This document shows positions 979 through 39,125 of a stretch of 58,421 nucleotides of DNA, one piece after another. This stretch comes from Bacteroidota bacterium (GTDB taxonomy: Bacteria > Bacteroidota > Bacteroidia > NS11-12g > UBA955), in assembly GCA_018333525.1 (NCBI GenBank), contig JAGXTF010000014.1:1-58421 (forward strand), written 5' to 3'. The notes under the pieces were generated by a model. It saw only the letters and a list, made by a program, of their open reading frames with translations. It was not told where the DNA came from and did no database searches. A program made the translations under genes and the position numbers. Numbering within the stretch: position 1 is the stretch's first letter; each line of letters starts with the position of its first letter.

Positions 979-1053
979 TGGTGGTCCCGACAGGAATCGA
1001 ACCTGTATCTAATGCTCCGGAGGCATTCGTAGTATCCATTCTACTACGGGACC
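979..1053 (-). tRNA. tRNA-Arg (anticodon CCG)
   Basis: On the minus strand the RNA begins GGTCCCG at 1053 and closes with CGGGACC plus discriminator A at 982; a CCA tail is encoded at 979-981. The anticodon arm has stem AATGC/GCATT and loop CTCCGGA, giving anticodon CCG for the CGG arginine codon. The T arm with GTTCGATTC is intact. It reads toward the partial gene at the window start. Confidence 0.96.
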
Positions 1054-7259: not shown

Positions 7260-7334
7260 TGGTATAAATGTAATTTTAGTTTGTTCCTGTTTCCTATAAA
7301 CCGGAAAAAGCCCTGAAATTTTTAAAATAAAAAA

Positions 7335-7415
7335 GGCGGTATCGCGCCGCTACAACCCGCTGCCCTTGCTACCTTCCGGTCCTGGGGGAGTTCACGGGGA
7401 GCTGACCGTACCGCC
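7335..7415 (-). ncRNA. ffs: signal recognition particle RNA (small bacterial type)
   Basis: Minus-strand transcript of about 81 nt. Terminal arms GGCGGTA (7415-7409) and TACCGCC (7341-7335) close the rod. The apical S-domain carries CCGGAAGG with the GGAA tetraloop and an asymmetric loop containing AGCAAGGGCAG, the universally conserved Ffh-binding core of 4.5S RNA. The exact ends are inferred from the closing stem and from the promoter just upstream. Confidence 0.92.
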
Positions 7416-7419
7416 GGTG

Positions 7420-7427
7420 CAAAGATA
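7420..7427 (-). promoter_or_regulatory. -7 promoter element for SRP RNA
   Basis: TATCTTTG on the minus strand (exact TAnnTTTG) ends 4 nt before the first closing-stem base of the SRP RNA. A TTG lies 21 nt further upstream, matching a -33 element. Because this RNA's 5' end is fixed by its stem, it calibrates the box-to-start distance in this genome. Confidence 0.65.
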
Positions 7428-32548: not shown

Positions 32549-32860
32549 TCAGTTGGAACCGTCTGAAGACTCATCCCTGCGGGCATACTCATCAAAGTCG
32601 TATTCCGGAAGCAGGTTACTTTTTACGTGGCTGATGGTTTCATTCAATGCATCAGAGAACTTATTGAAATCCTCTTTGTACAAATGGATTTTGGTTTTGA
32701 TAAAGTTACCATCATCAAATTTGCTGCGTTTGCTTTCAGTGATAATTACATAATAATCGCTGTTTCGGGTAGCTTTTACGTCAAAAAAATAAGTTCGTTT
32801 CCCGGCTCTGATTCTCTTTGAGAAGATCTCTTCCTGCCCGTTGTGCATTTCCTCTGTCAT
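32549..32860 (-). CDS. PUR-family (DUF3276) nucleic acid-binding protein
   Basis: 103 residues. The compact PUR fold is recognisable from FSKRIRAGKRTYFFDVKATR near 13-32 and the YYVIITESKR strand near 36-45. PUR proteins bind single-stranded purine-rich DNA or RNA; bacterial forms were described in spirochaetes and Bacteroidota. The acidic C-terminus resembles a disordered tail. It is a single gene with its own promoter (32886-32893). Confidence 0.87.
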   Translation of the reverse strand: MTEEMHNGQEEIFSKRIRAGKRTYFFDVKATRNSDYYVIITESKRSKFDDGNFIKTKIHLYKEDFNKFSDALNETISHVKSNLLPEYDFDEYARRDESSDGSN

Positions 32861-33022: not shown

Positions 33023-34804
33023 TCAATCTACGGGGTTGCTTTCCATTGCCTGTTTTTTGTAAATGGATGCAAATTCTCCACCTTGTGCTATGAGGGATTC
33101 TCTGGTGCCGGATTCAATAATTCGTCCTTTGTTGAACACCAAAATTCGGTCTGTTACAGCGAGTGGGGCAACGCGATGGGAGACAATTATGGCCGTTTTG
33201 CCTTTTAGAGCCTCAGCAAATGCGCGAATAATCATCATTTCAGTTGCTGCGTCAACGGCACTCAAACAATCATCCAGCACGTATAATTCCGCGTCTCGTA
33301 CCAATGCTCTTGCAATACTGAGTCTTTGTTTTTGTCCACCGCTCAGAGTAACACCCCTTTCCCCAAGCAAAGTTTCAAATCCATTGGGGAAATCGGCAAT
33401 ATCCTTTACCAATCCTGCTCTGGAGGCCGCAAGTTCTATTTCAAAATCATTCACTTTTCCATCCGGATCCCCAAATACAATATTTTCTGCAATGCTCTCG
33501 CTAAACAGAAATACATCCTGCGGTACGTAGGCTGTTTTATGGCGAAAGGACTCCAGGTTGAAATCTCTCCAGGATTTGCCGTCTACTCTGATTTCGCCAC
33601 TTTGGGGATCATAAAGTCGCATCAGCAATTGCACCAAAGTGCTTTTGCCGGAGCCTGTTCTACCCGTTATCCCAAGAATTTCACCTTTTTTCAAAGTGAA
33701 ATTTACCTCTTCCAGAGCAGGCACTTTGGATTTTGCATAGCTGAATGTCACATTTTCAAATGAAATGCTATCCTCTAACTCAAAATCCGGGGAGTCTTTT
33801 TGTGCAGCCTGCGGCTCAGTATGCAGGAATTCGTTAATCCTTTTTTGACTGGCAGCGGCTTTTTGCACCAAAGCAGTGGTCCAACCCAAACTTGCCACAG
33901 GCCAGATGAGCATATTTAGATACAATACGAATTCTGCAATGTTTCCCGGCGTAAAAGTTCCTTTGGCAGCTTCCAGTCCTCCCAGGTATAAAACAATAAG
34001 GTTACTTAGTCCAATCAGGACAAACATTAAAGGGAAGAAAAGAGAGTTGACAAATGCCAGCTGCAGGTTCTTTTTTCGGTAGTCTTTGCCCTCATGATCA
34101 AAAGAATGTTCAAAGTTCTTTTCAGCACCAAAGGATTTGATTACGCGAATACCGGCAAATGTTTCCTGCGCAAAGGTGGTGAGTTTGCTGAGCTGCGTTT
34201 GTATAATGGCCGTCCTGCTGTTAATCATGGTGCTCACTTTATATATGGAAAGGCTCAGAAATGGGAGTGGAAGCAGTACGTACCATGTCATATGCGGATT
34301 CACTGTGAACATTTGGTAAATGACAACTGCAAAAGTGAAGATGATGTTGGTGAAGTACATCACAGCAGGCCCAATGTACATGCGCACGTTTCCTACATCT
34401 TCACCTATCCGGGCCATCATATCCCCTGTAAAATTGCGCCTGTAAAAGCTAAGATCCAGTTTTTGGTAGTGGTCGTATATGTCATTTTTCAAATCATATT
34501 CCACATGCCTTGAAACCACTATGATGAATTGCCTCATGAGATACATAAAGGCTCCTTTCAATGCCGATGCCAATAAAATGAGAATGCCAAAACCAAGAGC
34601 GGCCAATACAGCAGGGTGGCTGAGCCAAAAGGAATCATGACTGTTGCTGATTCTGCTTTGAAACAGTGCTTCATCCAGCCCATCCCGCACCAACGCCGGA
34701 ACAAAAACACCTACTATATTGGATATGATCACACATAAAATCCCCAGCACCATAGAGTGTGAATATCTTTTAAAGTAAACGTTGAGTGCCAGCAATTCCT
34801 TCAT
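33023..34804 (-). CDS. type I ABC exporter half with degenerate catalytic site
   Basis: 593 residues from ATG 34804; the upstream TTG 34816 belongs to the -7 box. Six hydrophobic segments in the first 310 residues, then an ATPase domain with Walker A GRTGSGKST, signature LSGGQKQRL and H-loop SHR. Walker B reads YVLDDCLSAVD: an aspartate replaces the usual catalytic glutamate. This is the hallmark of the degenerate subunit of heterodimeric exporters such as BmrC/MdlA/TM287. No partner gene is adjacent. It may export lipids or drugs. Confidence 0.9.
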   Translation of the reverse strand: MKELLALNVYFKRYSHSMVLGILCVIISNIVGVFVPALVRDGLDEALFQSRISNSHDSFWLSHPAVLAALGFGILILLASALKGAFMYLMRQFIIVVSRHVEYDLKNDIYDHYQKLDLSFYRRNFTGDMMARIGEDVGNVRMYIGPAVMYFTNIIFTFAVVIYQMFTVNPHMTWYVLLPLPFLSLSIYKVSTMINSRTAIIQTQLSKLTTFAQETFAGIRVIKSFGAEKNFEHSFDHEGKDYRKKNLQLAFVNSLFFPLMFVLIGLSNLIVLYLGGLEAAKGTFTPGNIAEFVLYLNMLIWPVASLGWTTALVQKAAASQKRINEFLHTEPQAAQKDSPDFELEDSISFENVTFSYAKSKVPALEEVNFTLKKGEILGITGRTGSGKSTLVQLLMRLYDPQSGEIRVDGKSWRDFNLESFRHKTAYVPQDVFLFSESIAENIVFGDPDGKVNDFEIELAASRAGLVKDIADFPNGFETLLGERGVTLSGGQKQRLSIARALVRDAELYVLDDCLSAVDAATEMMIIRAFAEALKGKTAIIVSHRVAPLAVTDRILVFNKGRIIESGTRESLIAQGGEFASIYKKQAMESNPVD

Positions 34805-34813
34805 CGTCGGCTG

Positions 34814-34821
34814 CAAATGTA
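34814..34821 (-). promoter_or_regulatory. -7 promoter element for the ABC exporter gene
   Basis: TACATTTG on the minus strand, exact consensus, ending 9 nt before ATG 34804. The in-frame TTG at 34816 is inside the box and so is not a start codon. Confidence 0.6.
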
Positions 34822-34908: not shown

Positions 34909-34916
34909 TAATTTTG
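34909..34916 (+). promoter_or_regulatory. -7 promoter element upstream of the conserved RNA-like block
   Basis: TAATTTTG, exact TAnnTTTG, ends 4 nt before the GGGTAGATTT block at 34921. Transcription would begin at about the first base of the block, so the block may be the 5' end of an RNA. Confidence 0.55.
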
Positions 34917-34920
34917 CCAC

Positions 34921-34977
34921 GGGTAGATTTAAGTTTTCATAGCCAGCAGGGCCAGGGATTTTTCCTTGGCCTTGTTG
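34921..34977 (+). ncRNA. conserved block plus covarying hairpin, copy 1 (candidate structured RNA)
   Basis: Begins GGGTAGATTTAAGTTTTCAT, continues into AGC and a 15-bp hairpin at 34944-34977 (loop TTTT; lower stem CAGCAGGGCC pairing with GGCCTTGTTG including G-U pairs). The first 33 nt are identical to the copy at 36716. The upper stem differs there but remains fully paired. An ATTTTAT run follows, so it could be a short RNA ending in a terminator, or a leader of the DUF92 gene 55 nt downstream. It matches no RNA family I know. Confidence 0.6.
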
Positions 34978-35032
34978 ATTTTATAGGGGTTGCCATTTTA
35001 CTTACCCTTCGATTATTCTGATACAGCATCCA

Positions 35033-35860
35033 TTGAAACCCGTATTTGCCGAATATCTTCTCACAATAACTGTATTCCTCATTTGGATATTGGAAATCTG
35101 TTTCTTTCCTCCTGAGACTTTGAGTTATAACGAAATTATTCTCTCTCTGGTTTTCTTTTTGTTCTTTGGCCTTGTGGCAGTATTTCTGAAATTTCTCACT
35201 TTACCCGCAGCCTGTATTGCAGTTGTTATTGGAACCCAGGTCCAGGCAATCAATGATTTATCTGTGCTGCCTTTAATTGTATTTTTTATATCCGGTTCCA
35301 TTTTATCCCGCTTGCCAGGTACAAAGATTTTGAATGCACAATACGGTGCCGGTAGAAACAGCTGGCAGGTATTGGCAAATGGGGGAGTGGTATTTGTTTT
35401 AGGTGTCTTCGGACATGTATTTGGTATCCGGATCGAACTGTTTTATTTGGTTTCAGTAGCTGCAGCAACCGCAGATACCTGGAGCAGTGAAATCGGGGTG
35501 AGATTAGGTAAGAATCCGGTGGATATCCTTGGTTTTAAAAAACTGCCCCGGGGTTTATCAGGCGGGGTTTCCTTGGTGGGTTTCCTTGCAGGAGCGGCTG
35601 GTGGTACATGCATTGCTCTATTTTCCGAAACAGAACATGAATTTTTATTGGTTGCCACCGGTGGATTTTTGGGAACCTTAGTGGATAGTATTCTGGGAAG
35701 TCGATTTCAGGCATCCTATGTTCAACAGGATAATTCTTTATCTGAAATCCCAAATCAAAATTTATACAAAGGCTTACCCTGGTTCAACAACAACCTGGTA
35801 AACATTTTATCGAATATTCTGGCAATTGGATTGACAGCCTTATTTGCCATTTTCAAATAA
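35033..35860 (+). CDS. DUF92 family integral membrane protein
   Basis: 275 residues, starting at TTG 35033; no ATG or GTG exists in frame after the stop at 34976. About seven hydrophobic segments. The conserved DUF92 stretch AATADTWSSEIG near 146-157 and the later GGFLGTLVDSILGS near 210-223 identify the family (TMEM19-like), tied in some plants and bacteria to prenyl-phosphate or phytyl metabolism. Its role here is unknown. A structured RNA candidate lies in its upstream region and a strong terminator follows the stop. Confidence 0.85.
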   Translation: MKPVFAEYLLTITVFLIWILEICFFPPETLSYNEIILSLVFFLFFGLVAVFLKFLTLPAACIAVVIGTQVQAINDLSVLPLIVFFISGSILSRLPGTKILNAQYGAGRNSWQVLANGGVVFVLGVFGHVFGIRIELFYLVSVAAATADTWSSEIGVRLGKNPVDILGFKKLPRGLSGGVSLVGFLAGAAGGTCIALFSETEHEFLLVATGGFLGTLVDSILGSRFQASYVQQDNSLSEIPNQNLYKGLPWFNNNLVNILSNILAIGLTALFAIFK

Positions 35861-35862
35861 AA

Positions 35863-35880
35863 AAACCCCTTTCGGGGTTT
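35863..35880. terminator. bidirectional intrinsic terminator
   Basis: Stem AAACCCC (35863-35869), loop TTTC, stem GGGGTTT (35874-35880). It lies between the convergent DUF92 and peroxiredoxin stops. An A-rich flank on the left and a T-rich flank on the right (ATTTTATTTTTTT) give a T tract in both directions. Confidence 0.85.
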
Positions 35881-35895
35881 CTGAATTTTATTTTT

Positions 35896-36453
35896 TTATC
35901 TGCCTAAGGTAGCCTGCCCGGGTACCCAATTACAGGGAACGCGCTCTCCTGTGAGCAGTCCGCTAAGTACGCGCAATACTTCATCCACATTTCTTCCAAC
36001 ATCCAAATCGTTGATGTTCACCCAACGGATAATGCCATTTGGGTCTACAATATAGGTTGCACGGTATGCTACTTTCTCATCTTCACTTAAAATACCCAAT
36101 TCCTCTGCCAGACTTTTATTGGTGTCCGCAACCATTGGGAATTGCAAATTTCTCAGGTTTGGATCCTGGTTTCTCCATGCCAAATGAACATATTCTGTAT
36201 CGGTACTCGCACCTATCAAAATGGAATTTTTGGATTGAAAGTCTTCTGTTTTTTCATTGAACGCAGCAATTTCTGTAGGACAGATAAAGGTAAAATCCTT
36301 TGGCCACCAAAACATCACCATCCATTTGCCCGATTTTTTATGATCTTCGGAGCTGATAAATCCAAATTCTTTTCCCGGTTCAATACTTACGCATGCTTTT
36401 TTGTTAAATTGGGGAAAGCTCGCACCCACACTCAAACTTCTTACTTCTGGCAT
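35896..36453 (-). CDS. peroxiredoxin (AhpC/TSA family)
   Basis: 185 residues. The peroxidatic cysteine lies in DFTFICPTEIAAF near 54-66. A second cysteine in RVPCNWVPGQ near the C-terminus fits a resolving residue of a 2-Cys AhpC-type enzyme. It reduces hydrogen peroxide and organic peroxides in the cytosol. The reductant is unknown; no ahpF or ahpD is adjacent. Confidence 0.92.
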   Translation of the reverse strand: MPEVRSLSVGASFPQFNKKACVSIEPGKEFGFISSEDHKKSGKWMVMFWWPKDFTFICPTEIAAFNEKTEDFQSKNSILIGASTDTEYVHLAWRNQDPNLRNLQFPMVADTNKSLAEELGILSEDEKVAYRATYIVDPNGIIRWVNINDLDVGRNVDEVLRVLSGLLTGERVPCNWVPGQATLGR

Positions 36454-36715
36454 ATTTTAAATTTGCTGCAAAATTCACCTTTTTTATTTGAATTTCATAT
36501 GCGAATTCGCAAATTAATTGGTGGAATTTATCATGAATATTCAAACCAATACAAAATGTTTTTGGTACATGATTTTCGCAAGTTCATCGATATTACAATT
36601 TCCTGACTTTGTGCAACTTGCAGTAATTCAATAATTTAATTTGTTTGAACAATTCAGCACTAAAAAATATCGGATTTTAATACAACGTTTTTATGTTTCA
36701 AGCGTTCTTTACTTG

Positions 36716-36771
36716 GGGTAGATTTAAGTTTTCATAGCCAGCAGGGCCGGAACTTTGTTCCGGCTTTGTTG
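36716..36771 (+). ncRNA. conserved block plus covarying hairpin, copy 2 (candidate structured RNA)
   Basis: Same 33-nt block as at 34921, then a 15-bp hairpin (36739-36771, loop TTT). The lower stem is shared. The upper stem changes from AGGGA/TCCTT to GGAAC/GTTCC with full pairing kept. TTTTAATTT follows the hairpin. No exact TAnnTTTG precedes this copy. It lies about 315 nt upstream of the T9SS gene start, so a simple leader role is less likely than for copy 1. Confidence 0.6.
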
Positions 36772-36896
36772 TTTTAATTTCTCCTGTTTTTTGAAACAAC
36801 ATTCCGCAACCCATATAAGAATTCAGGGTTTTTGGTCGCAATACATTTTTGCGATTCTTTTTATCTGTACCAACAAGTCATGGCTCTAATTTGGAC

Positions 36897-36916
36897 CGAC
36901 AAGTCATGACTTGTCG
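36897..36916. repeat. 20-bp perfect palindrome
   Basis: CGACAAGTCATGACTTGTCG, perfect over 20 nt. A partial second copy of one arm (AACAAGTCATGG) lies about 30 nt upstream near 36872. No T tract follows. Its core differs from the other palindromes in the window. Confidence 0.75.
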
Positions 36917-37943: not shown

Positions 37944-39125
37944 TTGAAATTCCAAATATCCACGTATTTTAAAAACGATAAAAGCAACTATTTATGGTTG
38001 CTTTTTGGTTTGCTGGCCTGCATTTTGGCAGCAAGAAATTACCTGCTTCCTGCCAAGGAATTCATGACGCATTATAACAATTATCTGATTTTCAAGCAGA
38101 GTTTTTTTCATTTGTTGGAGGGAAAAAATTTATACGCGCCTTACCCTGAAGAACATTACGATTTTTTTAAATATGCACCTGCATTTTCTTTGTTTTTTGG
38201 CCTGTTTGCATGGCTCCCGGATTGGCTGGGCCTGGCACTTTGGAATCTAACCAATGTGGGTGTTTTGGTTTTAGCGATTAAAAAATTACCCAATCTTTCC
38301 AATAATCATAAATTAATATTTGGAATTTTGGTTTTGCAGGAGGCTATAACCACTACCATGAACAGCCAGAGCAATGCCTTGATAGCAGGACTCCTGATTC
38401 TGTCATGGATCGCTTTGGAAAAGGGGAAATTTACCAAAGCTGGGTTATTTATTGCCCTTACTGCATTTATCAAAATATTCGGAATTTTATTTCTGTTTCT
38501 ATTTTTATTTTATCCGAAATGGTACAAATCTGTTTTGCCCGTTGCAGGCATTTTTGTATTGTTATTCCTTTTGCCAATAACGATTCTCGGTTATCAGGGA
38601 TTGTTGGATTCTTATCAATCCTTTGGGAATTTACTTGCAGCAGATCATGGAAATTTTGTAAAATATTCCGTGATGGGTTGGTTACAAAACTGGTTTGGCA
38701 TTGTCCCGGCTAAAAATACTGTTGTACTTTTAGGGTTTGTTTTACAATTCATTCCGGCCCCCATCTGGATTTTAAAAACCCGAAATGCAGATTCCAGATT
38801 CCGATTTATGGCCTTGCTGGCGGCATCTCTGCTAATCTGGATGGTGATTTTTAATCATATGGCAGAGAGTGCAACCTATATCATTGCGGTAATGGGTGTA
38901 ATGATGTGGTTCTTTTATTCCGGCTGGGACAAAAAATGGCGCATTATTTTATTGATTCCGGTGATGGCATTCACATGTTTTGGCCCTTCGGATATTTACC
39001 CACCTGAATTGCGGGAAAATATAGTGGTGCATTGGCAACTAAAAGTATTCCCATGTATCTTAATTTGGTTCATTTGCCTGGTTCAAATGGGGCAAATCGC
39101 ACTTGCAAAAAGAATCACGGAGTAG
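37944..39125 (+). CDS. GT87/DUF2029-like polyprenol-dependent glycosyltransferase
   Basis: 393 residues, TTG start at 37944. About ten hydrophobic segments with an early periplasmic loop (YPEEHYDFFKYAPAF near 68-82), the feature of GT-C mannosyltransferases in family GT87. These use polyprenyl-phosphate sugars on the outer face of the inner membrane. Donor and acceptor are unknown. The stop overlaps the convergent acr3 stop by 11 nt. Confidence 0.8.
   Translation: MKFQISTYFKNDKSNYLWLLFGLLACILAARNYLLPAKEFMTHYNNYLIFKQSFFHLLEGKNLYAPYPEEHYDFFKYAPAFSLFFGLFAWLPDWLGLALWNLTNVGVLVLAIKKLPNLSNNHKLIFGILVLQEAITTTMNSQSNALIAGLLILSWIALEKGKFTKAGLFIALTAFIKIFGILFLFLFLFYPKWYKSVLPVAGIFVLLFLLPITILGYQGLLDSYQSFGNLLAADHGNFVKYSVMGWLQNWFGIVPAKNTVVLLGFVLQFIPAPIWILKTRNADSRFRFMALLAASLLIWMVIFNHMAESATYIIAVMGVMMWFFYSGWDKKWRIILLIPVMAFTCFGPSDIYPPELRENIVVHWQLKVFPCILIWFICLVQMGQIALAKRITE

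Follow-up and report, generated by a model that had tools for sequence, protein, structure and literature searches.

Two copies of one short sequence lie on the forward strand of the 58,421-nt stretch of DNA analysed here (the window), and the question that they raise is what an invariant block leading into a hairpin of differing sequence might encode. The initial annotation had described 33 identical nucleotides followed by a 15-bp hairpin; this was borne out at both coordinates that it gave, the shared sequence being GGGTAGATTTAAGTTTTCATAGCCAGCAGGGCC. The parts of the two copies, with the promoter-like sequences ahead of them, are as follows.

34909-34916 (+): TAATTTTG, a -7 box of the Bacteroidota sigma-A kind, 4 nt ahead of the copy 1 block
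34921-34943 (+): 5' block of copy 1, GGGTAGATTTAAGTTTTCATAGC, with five exact genome copies, unpaired in the minimum free energy (MFE) fold
34944-34977 (+): 15-bp hairpin of copy 1, an intrinsic terminator, found as a terminator-like site and homologous to a stem that covaries in 30 copies
34978-34982 (+): ATTTT tail of copy 1, the probable RNA 3' end by terminator scoring
36683-36706 (+): CAAC-N16-CGTT, copy 2 promoter of ECF-sigma-like form, 9 nt ahead of its block
36716-36738 (+): invariant 5' block of copy 2, from sequence identity and genome copies
36739-36771 (+): 15-bp hairpin of copy 2, an intrinsic terminator by fold and terminator scoring, with an upper stem unlike that of copy 1
36772-36775 (+): TTTT tail of copy 2, by terminator scoring

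Each 15-bp stem contains 8 G-C pairs. The MFE values were -27.6 kcal/mol for copy 1 and -24.4 kcal/mol for copy 2 (z of -4.6 and -4.8), and none of 200 shuffled sequences folded as well as the native hairpins. Since each hairpin is strong for its composition and runs into a T-rich tail, terminator scoring flagged both sites. As had been claimed, the upper stems differ in sequence while pairing is kept in both, copy 1 including one G-U pair. The claim of a conserved single-stranded part stood for the first 23 of the 33 nt, which are predicted to be mostly unpaired, but not for nt 24-33, which form the 5' arm of the stem. When the window was shuffled 100 times with dinucleotides preserved, no block match at ≤3 mismatches was obtained. 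The 23-nt block holds no ATG, GTG or TTG and no start codon precedes the hairpin, and a coding role for the block was rejected on that ground.

The exact 23-nt block occurs five times in this genome. The three further exact copies lie outside the window on contigs C4 and C118, each with its own hairpin and T-run, and the one at C118:120051 shares only the first 23 nt, its stem being entirely different and still paired; the structure thus has two parts, a 5' block that does not vary and a second part of which only hairpin form is required. By pattern search the exact block was also located in further genera of the same family. A covariance model was then built from 21 sequences, and with matches above 50 bits taken as confident it found 30 copies in 22 genomes of 6 genera, all in one family, with one or two copies per relative against five in this genome; those relatives whose record type is known are all metagenome assemblies. 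Outside the family, neither the rest of the order nor 395 genomes of the class gave the same model a match above 40 bits. Matches of 30-38 bits across the class were, among those inspected, mostly ordinary terminators of other genes lacking the block. The exception among these weak matches, L113, led to the members described below in a second order. No Rfam 15 family reached its gathering threshold and none relevant appeared at E up to 5, in line with the earlier statement that the element matched no known RNA family; the literature searched likewise yielded no matching small RNA family.

A variable terminator hairpin follows every copy. In the 30 aligned copies its 14-bp stem shows two-sided changes at 12 of the 14 pairs, with a covariation score of 0.49 compared with 0.27 ± 0.015 after shuffling, and the score fell to 0.22 or less once the stem partners were slid by 1-3 columns. 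Most variation in the 5' part consists of short deletions within the AU-rich middle; nearly every copy keeps GGGTA and AGTTTTCATA. RNAalifold also proposed a 5' helix (GGxUAGA/UCxUAxC), which had no two-sided change and is not claimed. Since the members were collected by means of the block, its invariance is partly a matter of ascertainment; the covariance model nonetheless recovered deletion variants of it. Covariation, promoter and synteny played no part in selecting members, and those results are less affected for that reason. Taken together, these results support the proposal of selection on RNA structure, and the 30 covarying copies dispose of the concern that only two copies might exist.

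A near-identical block, GGGTAGCTTGAGTTTTCATAGG, came from a gapped pattern search of the class and then a search of one family belonging to a different order, where 14 of 64 genomes carry it (13 exact, one with a single mismatch). The gene upstream was hsp20 in 13 of the 14, the contig being cut in the last, and in these 13 genomes the block began 7-10 nt, and once 38 nt, after the hsp20 stop codon. Terminators follow the block here too, with stems that differ between species. Because no separate promoter was evident at the hsp20 loci, the block in the second order is probably part of a 3'-UTR-derived RNA. The two forms may share descent or may have converged on the same partner; under both views the block is indicated as the functional unit. 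At L303-L316, ribF came next after hsp20 and the block wherever the flanks were read.

The -7 box reported 4 nt ahead of copy 1 was confirmed as an exact TAATTTTG at 34909-34916. Copy 2 lacks such a box and has instead the full arrangement CAAC-N16-CGTT-N9-GGG, spanning 36683-36715. When the 30 upstream regions were aligned on GGG, two predicted promoter classes emerged, with each copy in one. The sigma-A class holds nine copies, four with a strict TAnnTTTG at the distance seen in copy 1 and five with AATTTTG or a close variant; window copy 1 and three other copies of this genome belong to it. An ECF-like promoter, AAC-N16-nGTT-N8-10-GGG, in which AAAAC occupies -34 to -30 and GTT occupies -12 to -10, could be assigned to the other 21, including window copy 2; 19 fit strictly and two are shifted by one base (G031b and G034b), and the chance of the strict pattern is 0.001 per copy. 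In Bacteroides thetaiotaomicron, as outlined in PMC7366714, GibS is transcribed from a non-canonical -30/-10 promoter, PM2, that is enriched at genes linked to oxidative stress, and a later study placed TGTT at the PM2 -10 box and proposed that ECF sigma factors read it (PMC12596196). Judged by spacing and the GTT element, our AAAAC-N17-GTT class resembles this proposed ECF-sigma promoter of Bacteroides.

The following neighbours of the two copies bear on their setting.

32549-32860 (-): DUF3276 gene, in the conserved neighbourhood of the msbA-like exporter
33023-34816 (-): msbA-like ABC exporter gene, divergent from copy 1 (Pfam ABC_membrane and ABC_tran)
35896-36453 (-): peroxiredoxin (AhpC/TSA) gene, divergent from copy 2
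36641-36652 (+): inverted repeat TTGTTTGAACAA, lying 75 nt ahead of copy 2
37944-39125 (+): GT87 glycosyltransferase gene, with an ortholog downstream of the katG-linked RNA copy in genus g8 as well

An ortholog of the msbA-like exporter adjoins the RNA in 14 genomes of five genera. Because of this presence in five genera, the intergenic position beside the exporter and DUF3276 appears to be the oldest site of the RNA; it is occupied in the window by copy 1, divergent from the exporter, and in two genera it has rpsO-pnp on its other side. In genus g8 the first copy is divergent from katG and the second from a rhodanese/thioredoxin gene, and the genus g2 copy comes after a cytochrome c peroxidase-like gene (rpsO, pnp and these redox genes were named from their protein sequences). 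As far as such annotation goes, the neighbours of the RNA copies are repeatedly stress genes. The repeat TTGTTT(G)AACAA recurs about 75 nt before the RNA at window copy 2 and at several katG-linked copies of another genus (-74/-75), two orthologous loci that thus have it at one offset, and is a possible regulator site. At L074 and L077 a perfect inverted repeat, TATGGTT-TTT-AACCATA, lies beside TTGTTTAACAA about 40-75 nt upstream of the RNA; these repeats between katG and the RNA are likely, if putative, sites of a peroxide-responsive regulator.

Other elements were also seen in the window. About 120 nt after copy 2 is a perfect 20-nt palindrome, CGACAAGTCATGACTTGTCG (36897-36916), whose 18-nt core occurs four more times in about 1 Mb of sampled genome, so that it looks like a small dispersed repeat. 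The compact hairpin AAACCCCTTTCGGGGTTT (35861-35882) lies between the convergent DUF92 and peroxiredoxin genes and is probably a terminator used from both sides. A Bacteroidales small SRP RNA (RF04183, 67.8 bits) was found at 7331-7422 (-) and a tRNA-Arg (CCG) at 979-1053 (-).

A promoter directly before a conserved, single-stranded 5' end that is followed by an intrinsic terminator is the anatomy of a trans-acting small RNA. We therefore consider it likely that each copy is a stand-alone gene for a stress-induced, trans-acting noncoding small RNA of about 60-66 nt, made up of a 5' functional block and an intrinsic terminator. The predicted transcript of about 60 nt suggested earlier, running from the block to the terminator, gains support from the 30 covarying copies. 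RNA polymerase would start at the GGG, directed by sigma-A at copy 1 and three other copies here, or by an ECF-type stress sigma factor at copy 2. The first 23 nt would stay single-stranded as the functional part, and the variable hairpin with its T-run would stop transcription and protect the 3' end. The conserved 5' block, with the core GGGUAG-N4-5-AGUUUUCAUAG, would act in trans, with base-pairing to mRNAs as the likeliest mode and possible assistance from an RRM-domain protein, as for GibS and FopS in Bacteroides. On this model the small RNA would be made within envelope, oxidative or heat-stress responses; in the second order of Bacteroidia the block would sit in the hsp20 mRNA 3' UTR and, upon hsp20 induction, would be freed from it or function as a small RNA of 3'-UTR origin.

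Dispersal in several copies within one genome could also mark a DNA element, such as a transposon end, a REP-like repeat, an att site or an operator. A covarying stem, a promoter at a fixed distance and a strand-specific T-run are not what such an element calls for, and synteny is conserved across genera while the flanks have nothing in common. A transposon end, whose discovery the initial annotation had named as fatal to its proposal, or a REP/MITE repeat was rejected because only the RNA itself is common to the copies, which hold syntenic positions across genera with no transposase. Viral contigs gave no block match. A DNA element is hardly credible on this evidence. Somewhat less remote, though still very improbable, is a cis-acting leader or attenuator that governs readthrough into the downstream gene (DUF92 for copy 1, rpsO-pnp in other genera). 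In its favour, the hairpin is a terminator and a co-oriented gene starts 46-160 nt downstream in several genera. However, the downstream genes are entirely different between loci and at several are convergent (at G000a and at the four copies named 'b' in genus g8, without exception), which speaks against a leader; furthermore, no antiterminator alternative is visible, and the same block is found in the hsp20 3' UTR.

The trans-acting small RNA remains the preferred reading, with pairing and protein binding as its candidate modes of action. Its most constant core, AGUUUUCAUAG, is complementary to CUAUGAAAACU, a start codon plus a Lys codon, and because of this complementarity a block of translation initiation of the GibS/FopS kind was tested. 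Such a mode is a narrower form of the small RNA explanation, in which a short-seed antisense would target envelope or secreted proteins starting AUGAAAA (the complement of UUUUCAU). In this genome (G000) both near-complementary sites do fall on start codons, those of hemL and a secreted protein. However, in 19 other genomes start codons were a minority of the near-complementary sites examined and no gene recurred, and counts of complementary k-mers at starts equalled local expectation, with no enrichment beyond local composition. An apparent excess at AUG was gone under position-specific composition control. TCTACCC occurred 5 times versus 0.6 expected and stayed at that count (5 versus 0.9) when genes were added, and unrelated 7-mers attain z = 10. 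Perfect or near-perfect 13-nt complements were rejected as targets, the matches being unrelated genes, none recurring. In addition, complements showed no avoidance in coding sequence (ratio 1.01), duplex energies gave only a marginal excess over shuffled seeds, 97 orthologous gene pairs revealed no joint pairing, and pairing energies with 23S rRNA and its flanks were within those of shuffles. The complement, k-mer and ortholog-pair tests found no conserved mRNA target; the start-region tests sampled about 1.1 Mb (about 30%) of this genome and 0.4 Mb of one relative, so that a few real targets could be missed. We regard the AUGAAAA form as unlikely, and since no target was found we infer the base-pairing mode from the kind of RNA.

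Binding to a protein could replace pairing, with the RNA serving as a ligand or decoy whose bipartite block (GGGUAG, a short AU-rich spacer and AGUUUUCAUAG) would bind, for example, an RRM protein that is sequestered or recruited in stress. Protein-binding decoys usually have several sites per RNA, and only one is present here. The strict conservation across two orders, with the outer boxes fixed and the spacer varying by 1-2 nt, speaks for this reading, as do the pairing-target searches that found none. A small RbpB-like RRM-domain protein (MNLYIGNLPF...) is encoded in the genome (G000:C15:96004; L241 1496-1741, +); related in domain to Bacteroides RbpB, it is a candidate small RNA partner, and its presence makes protein binding, alone or with pairing, a live alternative. 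RbpB of B. thetaiotaomicron binds the conserved 5' motif of FopS, as the account in PMC11697453 outlines it, which favours a decoy by precedent; FopS also shows, however, that protein binding and base-pairing can share one block. We give the decoy a rather low probability.

Beyond the individual gene, we tentatively raise a broader possibility, which we hold less probable than the small RNA itself. One 20-nt module, constant across two orders, may be wired into three separate stress outputs (ECF-sigma genes, sigma-A genes next to operons for peroxide defence, and the 3' UTR of hsp20) and act through one conserved partner, protein or RNA, instead of as a start-codon antisense, and so serve environmental Bacteroidota as a general RNA hub of stress responses. 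The unusual part is that one short module is common to sigma-A genes, ECF-like genes and an hsp20 3' UTR across orders. To our knowledge, trans-acting small RNAs are barely known in Bacteroidota beyond gut Bacteroides. The family offers a defined RNA of 60-66 nt, promoters that would connect it with stress regulation by ECF sigma factors, and a form located after hsp20; with a block constant across orders and a clear set of members, the binding partners of Bacteroidota stress small RNAs become directly testable.

Among known systems, OxyS of E. coli is longer, has several hairpins and lies beside oxyR. The present family is like it in being a predicted stress small RNA next to and divergent from a peroxide-defence gene, but has one block and one hairpin, with katG or peroxiredoxin as the neighbour. 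RybB and MicA are sigma-E-dependent small RNAs of E. coli. The same dependence is described for FoxI and FoxJ in Fusobacterium (PMC11005410). These four likewise have an alternative-sigma promoter directly before a short terminator RNA that carries a conserved, seed-like stretch; they differ in sequence from the present family, which also has sigma-A-driven paralogs and the hsp20 3' UTR version. By its general traits, the family belongs to a known kind, most like the GibS/FopS type. It differs from these in that SusC-type start-codon targeting was not detected and that the RNA adjoins redox genes, in environmental assemblies, instead of polysaccharide loci; the class-wide model search yielded no multi-copy FopS-like set. 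The traits of the type were found here, namely an architecture of about 60-70 nt, paralogous copies and a sigma-A or PM2-like (TGTT) promoter. In the published accounts (PMC7366714, PMC11697453), GibS and FopS of B. thetaiotaomicron are likewise short, with a conserved single-stranded 5' region and an intrinsic terminator, and FopS comprises 14 paralogs of about 65-70 nt, one of them from a 3' UTR. The five copies here correspond to the several FopS paralogs per genome, the hsp20 version to the FopS of 3'-UTR origin, the two promoter classes to the use of sigma-A promoters for some and a non-canonical -30/-10 promoter for others (GibS), and in both cases the host encodes an RRM protein.
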